From the NCBI GenBank assembly GCA_903911145.1, contig CAIWCD010000002.1, forward strand, positions 62,001 to 126,000: a DNA stretch of 64,000 nucleotides, written 5' to 3'. Under the pieces are notes generated by a model, which worked only from the letters and a program-made list of their open reading frames with translations, made no database searches and was not told the origin of the DNA. Numbering within the stretch: position 1 is the stretch's first letter; each line of letters opens with the position of its first letter. Shown piece by piece: positions 51,148 through 56,873 of this stretch. Source of the DNA: an uncultured delta proteobacterium. Lineage in GTDB: Bacteria > Myxococcota > Myxococcia > Myxococcales > 40CM-4-68-19. The position numbers and the translations under genes are program-made.

Positions 51148-52041
51148 CTACGCGCGCGCAAGCTCCACGCGCAGCCAGCCATCCCGCTCGTGCCGCGACA
51201 CGGCCTTCAAGCCCTGCGCGACATACGCCTCGGTCGCTTCATCTCCCTGCGGTGCAAGCAGCCCCGAAAGCACCAGCCGCCCGCCGGGCGCGACCTTGCG
51301 CGCGATCTGCGGCGCGAGCTCGACGAGCGTGTTGAGCAGAATGTTCGCGATGACGATCTGAAACGGCTTGTCGTACGGCGCGGGCAGATCATCACAGTCG
51401 CGCAGCTGCCAGGAGATGCGATCGGGCGTGAGGCCATTGAGCGCCGCGCCCTCCTTCGCCGCGTCGATCGCCACGGGATCGTTCTCGGTGCCGCAGATGC
51501 GCGCGCCCGCGCCCAGCCTGGCCGCGAGGATCGCGATGACTCCGCTGCCCGTGCCGACGTCGAGCAGATCGGCGCCGGGAAATTCTTTCAACAGCTCGTC
51601 CGTGCGCTCGAGGCAGAGCGCCGTCGTCGCGTGCGCGCCCGTGCCGAACGCCATGCCGGGATCGATCGCGATCGCGACTTCACCGGCAGCGAGCGCGGGC
51701 ATGTCCCACGGTGGGTGCACGAACGAGCGCGGCCCCACGCGCAGCGCCTTGTGGTGCGCGCGCCACGAGAGGCTCCAGTTCTCCTCGATGATCTCGATCG
51801 GCGTCGGAACCTCGAGCGTCGGCAACTCGCCCGCGAGCACCTGCGCTGCAGTCTCGGCATCCGCGCGGCTGCCGAAGTGCGCGATGCAGCGCCAGCGGCC
51901 TTCCGGAAGCGGCGGCGTGCCCGGCATCAGCAGCATCCCCGGCTCCTGTGTCTCGACGCCGAGCGCGCCCTCGTCGAAGCAGAGCGACGACGCGATCTCG
52001 AGCTCGGCCTCGGGTGCGAGCAGCACGAGTGCAAAACTCAT
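51148..52041 (-). CDS. prmA: ribosomal protein L11 methyltransferase
   Basis: Class I SAM methyltransferase that trimethylates lysines of ribosomal protein L11. 297 residues: N-terminal substrate domain with IIEENWSLSWRAHHKALRVG, then the family-specific AIDPGMAFGTGAHATT, SAM motif I LLDVGTGSGVIAILAARLGA, and the NPPY-like catalytic FQIVIANILLNTL. Its start overlaps the stop of the M16 peptidase gene by four bases, so the two are one unit. Convergent with the HAAS gene. Confidence 0.96.
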   Translation of the reverse strand: MSFALVLLAPEAELEIASSLCFDEGALGVETQEPGMLLMPGTPPLPEGRWRCIAHFGSRADAETAAQVLAGELPTLEVPTPIEIIEENWSLSWRAHHKALRVGPRSFVHPPWDMPALAAGEVAIAIDPGMAFGTGAHATTALCLERTDELLKEFPGADLLDVGTGSGVIAILAARLGAGARICGTENDPVAIDAAKEGAALNGLTPDRISWQLRDCDDLPAPYDKPFQIVIANILLNTLVELAPQIARKVAPGGRLVLSGLLAPQGDEATEAYVAQGLKAVSRHERDGWLRVELARA

Positions 52042-54728
52042 GACTGCAATCCTTTCGTTGCACCGGCGCGCGCACCCGGCTCGCCGCGGAGTTCGTCTGG
52101 GATCGCCGCATCAGGCGCGACGAGCGCGATCGTTTCTCTCTCGGGCGCGAGCAACGACTCGGCGAGCGCGCGCACCTTCTCTGCCGTCACGCTCGCGATC
52201 CGCTCGGCATATCCACGCGACCATTCGGCCCCGAGGCCGTAGCACTCATCGAACGCCATGATCGCTGCGCGCGCCGAATTTCGCTGCAGACCGATCGCCT
52301 GGCTACCGATCAGATGTGTGCGCGCGCGATCGATCTCGGCCGCACCGGGCGCGGTCGCGCGCATGATCGCGAGCTGCTCGCGCATTCCGGCGAGCGCCTC
52401 GCTGACTTTGCCGGGACCGCAGCCGATGTACGTCGCGAAATATCCCGGATCGACACCCTCCATCGCGAAGCTCGAGACGCTGTAGGCGAGGCTCTTCTTG
52501 TCGCGCAGCTCGAGGAAAAGGCGACCGCCCTGCCCCGAGAGGATCGCCGAGAGAACTTCGAGCGTGTCGCGATCGGGAGACGACAGCGAGAGCCCCGGAT
52601 AGCCGAGCACGAGGTGGGCCTGCGCTTTCTCGAGTGCGCGCACGGCCGCACGGGGCGCGGTCTGGAGCGATTCGCGCGGAGGAGAGAGAGCCGGCGCAGC
52701 CGCCGTGTTCTTGCCGATGCTCGCCAGCACCCGCTCGCGCACTTCAGCGGGATCGACATCGCCGACGACCGCGATCACGGCAGCGCCCGGCGAGTAGAGG
52801 CGAGCACGCAGCGACGCGAGTTGTGCGCCATCAACGCGCGCAAGGCTCTCCGCGTTCCCGAGCAGATCGAGCCGATATGGGTGCTTCTGAAAGAGCGTCT
52901 CGGCGAAGAGCTGGAAGGCCGCGCCAGCCGGATTGTCATCGCGCGAGCGCAGCTCCTCCTTCTGCAGCGCGGTCTCGCGCTCCACCTCGGGCGCGCGGAA
53001 GACGGGCTCGCAGGTCGCCTCCGCGAAGAGATCCCACGCCCGTTCGAAGTGGCGCGAGAGCGCCTCGGCGCGCAGGCCGAACGAGTTGCGGCCGGAGTTT
53101 CCACCGAGCGAGCCGCCCATCTCTTCCATCTGCTTGGCGATCTCTTCTGCTGTTCGCGTCTTCGTCCCCTTCGAGGCGAGGCGCGCAAGAAGAAGCTGCC
53201 AGCCGCCGTCGGTCGCCGTCTCCGCGCGCAGGCCGCCGTTCCAGACCGTGCGCATCGCGACAAGAGGAACCGCGCGCTCTTCACGGATCAGCAGCGTGCC
53301 TCCGCCGGGAAGTTTTTCGCGCAGAAGCTGCCCGCCAGTGTCCTTGCCCGCACGCAGCGCGCGCCGCACGGGTGGCGGACGGGAGAGCGCCGGGGCCGCA
53401 GGAGGCAGCGTCACGGCGAGCGCAATCTTCGACGCCTCATCGAGCATCGCAGTGAGCGCCGCGCTGTCGAGCGCAGCATCTGCCTCGGTCGGCAGAAGCG
53501 CCGCTGCATTGAGCGCGCGCGGATCGAGCCAGCGCTGCGCCGCTTCGAGCACCAGCTGCGGCGTCATCGCGGCGATGCGCGCGAAATATTTCTCCTCGAG
53601 AGCAAGGCCGCCCTTCGCCGTCAGATAGAAGCCCAGCTTGCGCGCCTGCCCCTGCACCGTCTCGCGCTGGAAGACCGCATCGCTCTCGAGGAGCCGACAC
53701 GCGCGCTCGAGCTCATCGGCCGAGATCTCTTCGGTCCGCAGCAGATGCAGCTGGCGCGCGGCTTCACCGACGGCCTCGCGCAGCTTGTCGGGCGAGAGCG
53801 TGAACGAGAGCATCGTCAGCCCGCGATCCTGCGGCGTGTAGCAGCTCGCGTGCAGCTCGTTGACCAGCAGGCGATCGCGCTTCATCGAGCGGAACAGCCG
53901 CGACGCCTCGCCGTGACCGAGCACGATCGAGAGCGCGTCGAGCGCGGCGACATCATCGTGATCGATCGGCGGCGCGGGCCACGAGAGCGTCAGCTGCGCT
54001 TCGCGGACTCCCTGCCGCACGAGCTTCGCGCGCGACCGCTCCTGGAGCGGTTCAGCGGTGCGCGGCGGCGCGGGAACGAATGCATCGTTTGCTTGCGCGC
54101 CTTCGCGATCCTCGAATCGAAAATATTTCCGCGCCGCCGCGAGCACGTCGGCCTCGCGCACATCGCCGACGACCGCGACGGTCATGTTCTCTGGCCGATA
54201 CCAGCGTCGATAGAAGTTGAGAATGCGCTCGCGCGTGTGGCTGCGGACACTCTGCTCGGTGCCGATCACGGGCAGGCGATACGGATGCGTCTGGTATGCG
54301 GTGGAGAAGAGCGCCTGCGAAACGACACGGCCGGGTGAGTCGGCCGAGCGGTTGATCTCCTCGCAGACCACTTCGATCTCGCGCGTCAGCTCCTCGCGAT
54401 CGAACGCCGCGGCGCTCACCGCGTCGGCCAGCACCGCGAGTCCCGTCTCCCAATATCGGCTCGCGATCGTGACGTGATAGACGGTCTGATCGAACGAGGT
54501 CCAGGCGTTGATCTCGCCGCCCGCCGCCTCGATCTGGCGCGCCACTTCTCCGGGCCCGCGCGACTTCGTTCCCTTGAACAGCATGTGCTCGTGGAGATGC
54601 GCGATGCCGGCCTCGTCGGGCGTCTCGTCGGCCGAGCCGACCTTCACCCAGATCTGGATGGCCGCGACGGGCGCGGTGTGATTCTCCTCGACGTGAACGG
54701 TCAGTCCGCCTTCGATCTGCGTGGGCAT
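52038..54728 (-). CDS. M16 family zinc metallopeptidase, two-domain
   Basis: 896 residues from the ATG at 54728 (MPTQIEGG). Two M16 halves: the first has the inverted zinc motif HLHEH (His44, Glu47, His48) with the third ligand Glu in VVCEEINRS, an active catalytic half. The second (about 470-880) has lost HxxEH and is the usual inactive partner (MRTVWNGGLRAETATDGGWQLLLAR in pieces). Related to pitrilysin and processing peptidase-like enzymes that degrade or process peptides. No signal peptide is visible. I chose this start because the open frame upstream is Arg/Pro-rich shadow sequence without family similarity. Overlaps prmA by four bases. Confidence 0.9.
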   Translation of the reverse strand: MPTQIEGGLTVHVEENHTAPVAAIQIWVKVGSADETPDEAGIAHLHEHMLFKGTKSRGPGEVARQIEAAGGEINAWTSFDQTVYHVTIASRYWETGLAVLADAVSAAAFDREELTREIEVVCEEINRSADSPGRVVSQALFSTAYQTHPYRLPVIGTEQSVRSHTRERILNFYRRWYRPENMTVAVVGDVREADVLAAARKYFRFEDREGAQANDAFVPAPPRTAEPLQERSRAKLVRQGVREAQLTLSWPAPPIDHDDVAALDALSIVLGHGEASRLFRSMKRDRLLVNELHASCYTPQDRGLTMLSFTLSPDKLREAVGEAARQLHLLRTEEISADELERACRLLESDAVFQRETVQGQARKLGFYLTAKGGLALEEKYFARIAAMTPQLVLEAAQRWLDPRALNAAALLPTEADAALDSAALTAMLDEASKIALAVTLPPAAPALSRPPPVRRALRAGKDTGGQLLREKLPGGGTLLIREERAVPLVAMRTVWNGGLRAETATDGGWQLLLARLASKGTKTRTAEEIAKQMEEMGGSLGGNSGRNSFGLRAEALSRHFERAWDLFAEATCEPVFRAPEVERETALQKEELRSRDDNPAGAAFQLFAETLFQKHPYRLDLLGNAESLARVDGAQLASLRARLYSPGAAVIAVVGDVDPAEVRERVLASIGKNTAAAPALSPPRESLQTAPRAAVRALEKAQAHLVLGYPGLSLSSPDRDTLEVLSAILSGQGGRLFLELRDKKSLAYSVSSFAMEGVDPGYFATYIGCGPGKVSEALAGMREQLAIMRATAPGAAEIDRARTHLIGSQAIGLQRNSARAAIMAFDECYGLGAEWSRGYAERIASVTAEKVRALAESLLAPERETIALVAPDAAIPDELRGEPGARAGATKGLQS

Positions 54729-54785
54729 CTGCAGAGCGTAACAGGAGCCGCGGGCTGTGACCGGGCATTCGACGCAACGTACGCA

Positions 54786-54817: not shown

Positions 54818-55615
54818 CTAGAACGGCGCCGCGATCACCTTCGCGAGCGCGAGCGGCCGCTCGAGATGCGGGCAATGGCCGGCCTTCTCGAGCAGATGGA
54901 ACTGCGCGCGCAGAAGCTCCTTGCGCCAGAACGGCAGCGTCTCGGCGGGCAGCAGGCGATCGCTTGCACCCCAGATGAGACGCGTCGGAACGCTCAGGTT
55001 CGCAAGATCGCCGCTGGCAATGAAATCGCTTTCGACGAGAGAGGTGATGACTCCGCTGATCGGCGGCGCGCGCATCTGCTTGAGCACTTCGCCGGGAAAC
55101 AGCTCGAGCGCCTTGGGCGCGCTGTGGAACGCGCTGCGCAGGTAGCGGCGCGCGCCGTGGTGATCGTCGGCGAGGATCAGCTTGCGGAACGGATCCCACT
55201 CCGCCTCGGGCAAGAGCGGCCCGCCCGGATTCACCAGCACCAATCCCGGCGGCGAAATCGAGCCCTCGAGAATCAGTTTGAGTGCCAACCATCCGCCCAG
55301 CGAATGGCCGACGATGCGCGCCCCCGGAACAGCCTGGGCCGCGGCCCGCGCGCCCGCGAGCATCGTCGAGAGCTTCCAGTTCGGCGGCGCCTCCGACAGT
55401 CCGTGGCCGGAGAGATCGACGATGTGCACGCGAAAGCGCGCGAGCAGCGGCAGCGAGGCCTGCCCCCAGCCCGCGATCGAATCACCGAGGCCGTGCAGCA
55501 CGAGCAGAGGCGGCAGCTTGCGCGAACCGCGCGCGACCATGCGCAGCCGACCCGCGGGAGTCTCGAGGTGCGTCACCTCGCCGCCCGTTTCGGCCAGCTT
55601 GCGCAACAGCGACAT
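54818..55615 (-). CDS. alpha/beta hydrolase
   Basis: About 265 residues from the ATG at 55615, or 284 from a TTG at 55672 that almost touches the histone-fold gene. Alpha/beta hydrolase fold: VLHGLGDSIAGW (oxyanion), nucleophile elbow VGHSLGGWLAL, acid in WGASDRLLP and the histidine in KAGHCPHLE. Size and motifs are as in MhpC-like or lipase-like esterases; the substrate is unknown. The short gap to the upstream histone-fold gene suggests joint transcription. Confidence 0.85.
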   Translation of the reverse strand: MSLLRKLAETGGEVTHLETPAGRLRMVARGSRKLPPLLVLHGLGDSIAGWGQASLPLLARFRVHIVDLSGHGLSEAPPNWKLSTMLAGARAAAQAVPGARIVGHSLGGWLALKLILEGSISPPGLVLVNPGGPLLPEAEWDPFRKLILADDHHGARRYLRSAFHSAPKALELFPGEVLKQMRAPPISGVITSLVESDFIASGDLANLSVPTRLIWGASDRLLPAETLPFWRKELLRAQFHLLEKAGHCPHLERPLALAKVIAAPF

Positions 55616-55675
55616 CGCGAACGGCTCGCGCGGAGTGCGGGCGCGCTGCTCGATGGCCTCGGAGCGCGTCAAGGT

Positions 55676-55885
55676 CTAGATGTCTTCGGGGCGCAGCGTC
55701 GAGCGGCCATTCGCTGTGCAGCGCGCGATCGCCTTCACGACGGTCTCTTCGACATGCGTCGAGAGCGCGTGGATGAACTCGTCGGAGACGCGCTTCTCCT
55801 TGCTGCGGATGAGCTCGCGCACCTTCGACTGGACGATGAGCAGTTCCTTCTTCTCCGCAGAGGCAGCTTCCGTCGATTCAGCCAT
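55676..55885 (-). CDS. miniature histone-fold DNA-binding protein
   Basis: 69 residues starting at 55885 with GGAGAG seven bases upstream. The pattern matches a single histone fold: helix 1 (LIVQSKVRELIRSK, about 16-29), loop 1, long helix 2 (about 34-58, SDEFIHALSTHVEETVVKAI), then GRSTLRPEDI, the equivalent of the archaeal histone loop-2 motif RKTVKAEDI. The chain ends there, so helix 3 is missing or very short. A short charged N-terminal tail precedes the fold. Bacterial proteins with this fold are known (for instance Bdellovibrio), so DNA binding is likely, but the assignment is by eye. Read with the hydrolase; divergent from carF across 172 bases. Confidence 0.72.
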   Translation of the reverse strand: MAESTEAASAEKKELLIVQSKVRELIRSKEKRVSDEFIHALSTHVEETVVKAIARCTANGRSTLRPEDI

Positions 55886-56057
55886 CGTTGCTCTCCCGTG
55901 GTGGGTTTGAGATCGTGGGCTCGTTTGAGTAACAGCGCGCCGCCGCACGCGCAACGCACGAGTCCTCCTCTGGAAGAGTGAGTCAATCGCGCGCATATCC
56001 ACCTGCGCTTTGCCCTGATACGGTCGCGCCCTTTGGTTGATGTGAAAGGTGGAACGC

Positions 56058-56873
56058 GTGGACAAGCCCTACGGGATCGAGCAGCGCGACAAGAAGGCCC
56101 TCACCGCTGGCTACAGCCCGAACATCCGCCGTTTCGAGATCACCAGCATCATCGCCTTCACGCTCTCGATCCTCTGGCTCGGCAGCAAGATCGCGCCTGG
56201 CGTGGTCGCCCGCCCCGTCCTCGCACTGGCGATGTTCTTCGTGGGCGCGCTGGGCGCGGACTTCCTCACCGGCATGTTCCATTGGGCCGCCGACACCTGG
56301 GGCACCGTCGAGTGGCCGATCGTCGGCGTGGGTCTCATTCGCCCGTTCCGCGAGCACCACATCGATCAGCTCGAGATCACCCGCCACGACTTCATCGAGA
56401 CCAACGGCGCAAGCGCGTTCATCACCTTCTTCTTCATCATCGCTGCGGCCCAGCTTCCGCAGGGTCCGGGCCTGACCTGGCAGTTCTGCGTCGGCGCCGC
56501 CACCCTGTCGACGATGATCCTCGGCTTCTTCACCAACCAGTTCCACAAGTGGTCGCACGAATCGCGCCCGCCCGCTCTGGTGGCGGCTTTGCAGCGCTGG
56601 CACGTGATCCTGCCGGTCGGTCATCATCAAGTGCATCACGTCGCGCCGTACACGAAGTACTACTGCATCACCAACGGCTGGCTGAATGAGCCGCTGCACC
56701 AGATCGGGTACTTCCGTGTCATGGAGCGGGTGATCTCGGCCGTGACGGGCCTCGTCCCACGCGAGGATGATCTCGGCAAGAAGGCCGCGACCGCGCTGGT
56801 CGATGACGCGCTCAAGAGCGCCGAGGCCGCAGCAACCTCGACGAGCAGTGCCCCTTCGCAATCGGGCCGGTGA
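56058..56873 (+). CDS. carF: CarF, plasmanylethanolamine desaturase
   Basis: CarF/TMEM189 enzyme that introduces the vinyl ether bond of plasmalogens from plasmanyl lipids; in Myxococcus xanthus it is needed for the singlet-oxygen light response. 271 residues from GTG 56058; AAAGGTGG seven bases upstream favours this over the GTG at 56049. About four membrane segments. The histidine set of the family is present: H75 (FHWAADTWG), H100/H101 (REHHIDQLE), H110 (TRHDF), H163 and H167 (FHKWSHE), H182, H189/H190 and H193/H194 (GHHQVHHVAPYTKYYC), H214. Presumably binds two irons in the inner membrane. Confidence 0.95.
   Translation: MDKPYGIEQRDKKALTAGYSPNIRRFEITSIIAFTLSILWLGSKIAPGVVARPVLALAMFFVGALGADFLTGMFHWAADTWGTVEWPIVGVGLIRPFREHHIDQLEITRHDFIETNGASAFITFFFIIAAAQLPQGPGLTWQFCVGAATLSTMILGFFTNQFHKWSHESRPPALVAALQRWHVILPVGHHQVHHVAPYTKYYCITNGWLNEPLHQIGYFRVMERVISAVTGLVPREDDLGKKAATALVDDALKSAEAAATSTSSAPSQSGR

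Follow-up and report, generated by a model that had tools for sequence, protein, structure and literature searches.

Fewer than 2% of bacterial genomes encode a histone (PMC10627809, PMC12701072), and detailed studies exist for few of these proteins, chiefly HBb and HLp. A short open reading frame in the 64,000-nucleotide stretch of myxobacterial DNA analysed here (the window) raises the question of whether it encodes a histone and, if so, of which kind. We find that its 69-residue product, from a soil-type lineage of myxobacteria, is genuinely related to histones and is a new, divergent member of the already known face-to-face (FtF) alpha3 histones. The FtF group, found in bacteria and archaea and described only recently, is predicted to assemble into four-part rings around which DNA is wrapped.

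A coding gene with a conserved histone signature

The frame (MAESTEAASAEKKELLIVQSKVRELIRSKEKRVSDEFIHALSTHVEETVVKAIARCTANGRSTLRPEDI) lies exactly where a first-pass annotation of the window had placed it. It runs on the minus strand, which that annotation had not given, from an ATG at 55885-55883 to a TAG at 55678-55676, and the ribosome-binding site described there as good is indeed present (Table 1). The GC fraction at third codon positions is 0.91, and dN is lower than dS in comparisons with each of nine same-family relatives, the differences falling mostly at codon position 3. This excess of silent over replacement change, coupled with 91% GC at third positions, identifies a real coding gene under purifying selection rather than a chance frame.

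Table 1. Features of the histone locus, in coordinates of the window
Feature	Position	Strand	Evidence
FtF-type alpha3 histone gene	55676..55885	-	ORF; PDB matches solely alpha3 histones; orthologues; purifying selection
Ribosome-binding site GGGAG	55893..55897	-	Sequence; 7 nt 5' of histone ATG
Short N-terminal tail, residues 1-12, acidic, Ser/Ala-rich, varies among relatives	55850..55885	-	Alignment
Helix alpha1, residues 13-28; paired-end-of-helices Q19-S20-K21, basic R23, R27	55802..55849	-	AlphaFold2; HLp equivalents
Long helix alpha2, residues 35-58, dimerisation; FtF tetramer residue R55 invariant	55712..55783	-	AlphaFold2; alignment
N59, loop 2 with RD clamp R61/D68 and T63, alpha3 66-68	55679..55711	-	AlphaFold2; N59, R61, T63, D68 invariant
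Alpha/beta hydrolase, start 3 nt past histone stop	54818..55672	-	Pfam Abhydrolase_1 8e-23; adjoins in six relatives
M16 peptidase, downstream, conserved synteny	52038..54733	-	Pfam PF00675/PF05193
prmA (ribosomal protein L11 methyltransferase), conserved synteny	51148..52041	-	Pfam PF06325
carF-like plasmanylethanolamine desaturase, divergent, outside conserved neighbourhood	56049..56873	+	NCBIfam NF045946; Pfam Lipid_desat

A single-sequence phmmer search of the PDB returned four matches up to E=10, all of them alpha3 histones: HTkC (5.2e-7), two HBb/Bd0055 sequences (2.6e-5 and 3.3e-5) and HLp (6.2e-5). As nothing else matches within that limit, the likeness to histones is above chance. A family profile built from 14 homologues, one of them of a second histone type (type B, below), ranks HLp (4e-17) and HTkC (7e-16) first, followed by HBb (2e-11) and then by archaeal HMfA-type nucleosomal histones. 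Standard family libraries miss the gene, as its description as overlooked had implied: Pfam gives the protein no significant family and lists no match to PF00808 (CBFD_NFYB_HMF), and the NCBIfam model archaea_histone (NF043032) scores 19.7 bits, below its cut-off of 50.

FtF histones are defined by a torus tetramer with the hallmark residues R48, N52, R54, T56 and D61; bacterial dimers such as HBb are without R48 and N52 (Schwab and colleagues, PMC11390915). In HLp, the tetramer contacts are made by R49, N53 and R55 (Hu and colleagues, PMC12701072). The corresponding residues of the window protein, R55, N59, R61, T63 and D68, show no variation across the 14 aligned homologues, and the pattern RxxxNxRxTxxxxD recurs in all 36 Myxococcota loci checked. 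The window protein therefore carries the residues that mark FtF histones (R, N and RxTxxxxD) and does not show the absence of Arg and Asn that marks the HBb type, in which these positions are occupied by S and D. In HTkC the tetramer Asn is replaced by E, which means that N59 cannot serve as a strict FtF marker. The loop-2 motif RxTLxPxD, to which the first-pass annotation had drawn attention, is conserved in the homologues.

Predicted fold and closest known histones

Structure prediction, carried out on single chains throughout, points to the same family. An AlphaFold2 run on residues 12-69, with a four-sequence alignment of the protein, one close relative and two IMG/VR viral histones, yields helices at 13-28, 35-58 and 66-68 with loops between them, in five models with pLDDT of 87-89. 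An earlier run with two close sequences had given one continuous helix over residues 3-58 and no loop 1; we regard this as an artefact of a shallow alignment, since four sequences suffice to bring out the histone fold in all five models. Homologues carry 2-4 extra residues exactly at loop 1, evidence for a real loop there and against a continuous helix.

The top eight PDB chains found with Foldseek are all HTkC, HLp or HBb (probability 1.00, TM 0.67-0.72); their E-values, 0.007-0.08, are modest because the chain is short. VIA alignment places HLp first (Z 6.7, rmsd 2.4 A over 56 residues) and eukaryotic histones next (Z 6.0), scores of a size that, taken alone, is weak for a small helical protein. 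Sequence matches in the PDB, the four-sequence prediction, Foldseek and VIA together bear out the histone fold that had been proposed from the DNA letters. Alpha3 histones have a third helix of 3-4 residues and an alpha2 shorter than that of nucleosomal histones (PMC11390915). The model agrees, with an alpha2 of 24 residues and an alpha3 confined to residues 66-68, as does the earlier reading of a single fold with a truncated third helix. The protein ends at residue 69, one residue past this helix, leaving no room for the third helix of about 10 residues of HMfB-type nucleosomal histones.

HLp of Leptospira perolatii, an FtF histone (PDB 9QT0, 9QT1, 9QT2), is among the closest known systems, being the best match of the family profile in the PDB and the best by VIA. 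The two proteins are about a third identical and share a short N-terminal tail, the residues R49/N53/R55/D62 of HLp, its S14-K15 and R59, and its K21 (as R27). DNA wrapping has been shown for HLp, whereas the window protein is known from its sequence and predicted fold. HTkC, an archaeal FtF histone from Thermococcus kodakarensis (PDB 9F2C), is the best single-sequence match in the PDB, with 46% identity over 54 columns of the Foldseek alignment and a similarly truncated alpha3; it differs in two extra residues in loop 1, in the Glu at the tetramer Asn and in having no tail. HBb (Bd0055) of Bdellovibrio bacteriovorus (PDB 8CMP, 8FVX) has the alpha3 fold, a single fold, the RxT....D clamp and an SK that starts alpha1, but is a dimer that bends DNA.

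Proposed DNA wrapping and competing readings

We propose that the protein is a bacterial FtF alpha3 histone that probably forms a torus tetramer wrapping some 60 bp of DNA, as HLp does. By homology with HLp, two chains would pair through their long alpha2 helices, and two dimers would contact one another at each end via R55, N59, R61 and the short alpha3, giving a flat torus. Such a tetramer would bind the DNA backbone without sequence preference, via alpha1 (S20, K21, R27) and loop 2 (T63, R65), and would help to organise the nucleoid alongside HU/IHF. DNA binding itself is likely on the strength of the HLp comparison. A13/S14/K15 and K21 contact DNA in HLp (PMC12701072); in our alignment mapping, S14, K15 and R59 of HLp are identical in the window protein (S20, K21, R65) and K21 is replaced by R27, while A13, T27, G29 and K54 are changed to Q19, V33, D35 and G60.

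One competing reading, offered as a possibility in the first-pass annotation, is a bender like Bd0055; such a protein would bind as a dimer and form no tetramer. HBb is among the four PDB sequence matches, and its structures rank close to FtF ones by fold in both Foldseek and VIA. Against this, R55 and N59 are both present in the window protein, the published bacterial dimers lack both, and the family profile places FtF histones well above HBb. A Bd0055-like dimer is therefore improbable, and ranks below an FtF tetramer that wraps DNA; Bd0055 is not the best grouping for this protein. What stands of the original reading as a minimal bacterial histone is the histone itself and its shortened third helix, in a kind already described from Myxococcota, FtF histones of this phylum having been published in 2024 (PMC11390915). 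That the protein is a helical hairpin or long coiled coil, resembling histones by chance, is very hard to credit: the long helix of the two-sequence prediction would fit it, yet the significant sequence matches and top fold matches are all histones, the deeper alignment gives a confident histone fold, and the RD clamp is invariant.

Charge raises a different alternative, in which a histone fold serves as a near-neutral partner subunit, for example of a basic second histone or within a protein complex, and not as a general DNA packager. The window protein has a pI of 6.7 and a net charge of about 0, some of the HLp contact residues are lost, and five sister genomes encode a basic second FtF histone, type B, with a pI of 9.9. 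This type shares the FtF signature and occurs in the same family; it is under a third identical to the window protein, strongly basic, has RKT against RST in loop 2 and carries a C-terminal extension. However, a second histone was not found in the window's genome (98.96% complete), which thus offers no evident histone partner; alpha1 SK, R27, T63 and R65 are also retained. We consider a partner role unlikely for this protein. In a broader form of the idea, the near-neutral Myxococcales FtF clade might have shifted away from plain packaging, towards heterotetramers with type B, towards weak or regulated binding, or, where it is alone, towards a role apart from DNA; this too we regard as a speculative and rather unlikely outcome. 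The DNA-wrapping FtF tetramer remains our preferred reading.

Genomic setting and distribution

The histone and the adjoining alpha/beta hydrolase are probably on the same transcript; the listed hydrolase start is a TTG, with an ATG further in. Within the family, the hydrolase (in six relatives), the M16 peptidase and prmA lie 3' of the histone. An RluA/RluD-type pseudouridine synthase (PF00849, some with an S4 domain; Pfam assignment made for two of the loci) precedes the histone on the same strand in 12 of 14 loci from four families (L022-L026, L028-L032, L034, L035). In the window, the gene directly upstream is the carF-like one (281.5 bits against NF045946, under the cut-off of 500) and not a pseudouridine synthase. 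The histone had been described as lying at a conserved place between carF and a hydrolase gene, with conservation beside carF in related genomes suggested as a check. The hydrolase half of that claim holds in six relatives, and carF is near the histone in none of the relatives examined, contig L029 being too short upstream to tell. We thus reject a link between carF and the histone; carF at this position is particular to the window's genome. The neighbours look like housekeeping genes and do not point to any specific partner.

Upstream of the histone in L023-L025 and L027-L031, we observe a conserved pair resembling -35 and -10 elements (TTGAAA ... CTGTTAGA/CTGTTAC). In the window the pair is weaker, near 55940-55950, with only GCTGTTAC kept. 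The pair stops some 10 bases short of the ATG in L029-L031, where the message could be leaderless.

Of the 11 other genomes in the family, 10 contain an orthologue (62-82% identity); the remaining one is a draft of 88% completeness, broken into 1,070 pieces. In the rest of the order the distribution is patchy, some histone of the same profile occurring in 21 of 145 genomes, and across the phylum sample such histones occur in 43 of 195. A homologue is also present in G017, a complete genome on a single contig from another family of the order. The genome_contigs scan found only one relative. Five family genomes encode type B (MAKKxxEPLVIASKAK...NGRKTVRxHDF) together with the near-neutral type (type B loci L053-L057, in G005, G007, G008, G004 and G011, respectively). 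A second weak match in G010 (L019, G010:C183:2009-2167) has a C-terminal extension with repeats, lacks the histone signature and was excluded from the count; its frame of 216 residues contains two short cysteine-containing repeats (CPVPGC.., CRVEGC..) and looks unrelated to histones. The match at L076, in a ClpP-like protease, is due to chance.

As to a mobile origin, plasmid and phage records gave no match to the protein, and a scan of viral contigs with the window-clade profile found nothing. FtF-like histones with the signature R..N.RxTxRxxD are encoded on viral contigs of IMG/VR (L072:2705-3034 and L073:2917-3165, both on the plus strand), and L075 holds an identical protein. Of these histones, the one on a contig of 221,679 bases has a long lysine-rich tail and adjoins an SbcD-like exonuclease gene.

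Our data define a divergent histone clade that falls below the curated Pfam and NCBIfam cut-offs for histones, present throughout one myxobacterial family and patchily across the phylum. The window's genome also encodes three HU/IHF genes (G000:C6:13941-14210, G000:C18:53887-54147 and G000:C48:287980-288249), and is a case of a histone coexisting with these proteins. The clade offers a further target, beyond Leptospira, on which DNA wrapping by histones of bacteria can be tested.
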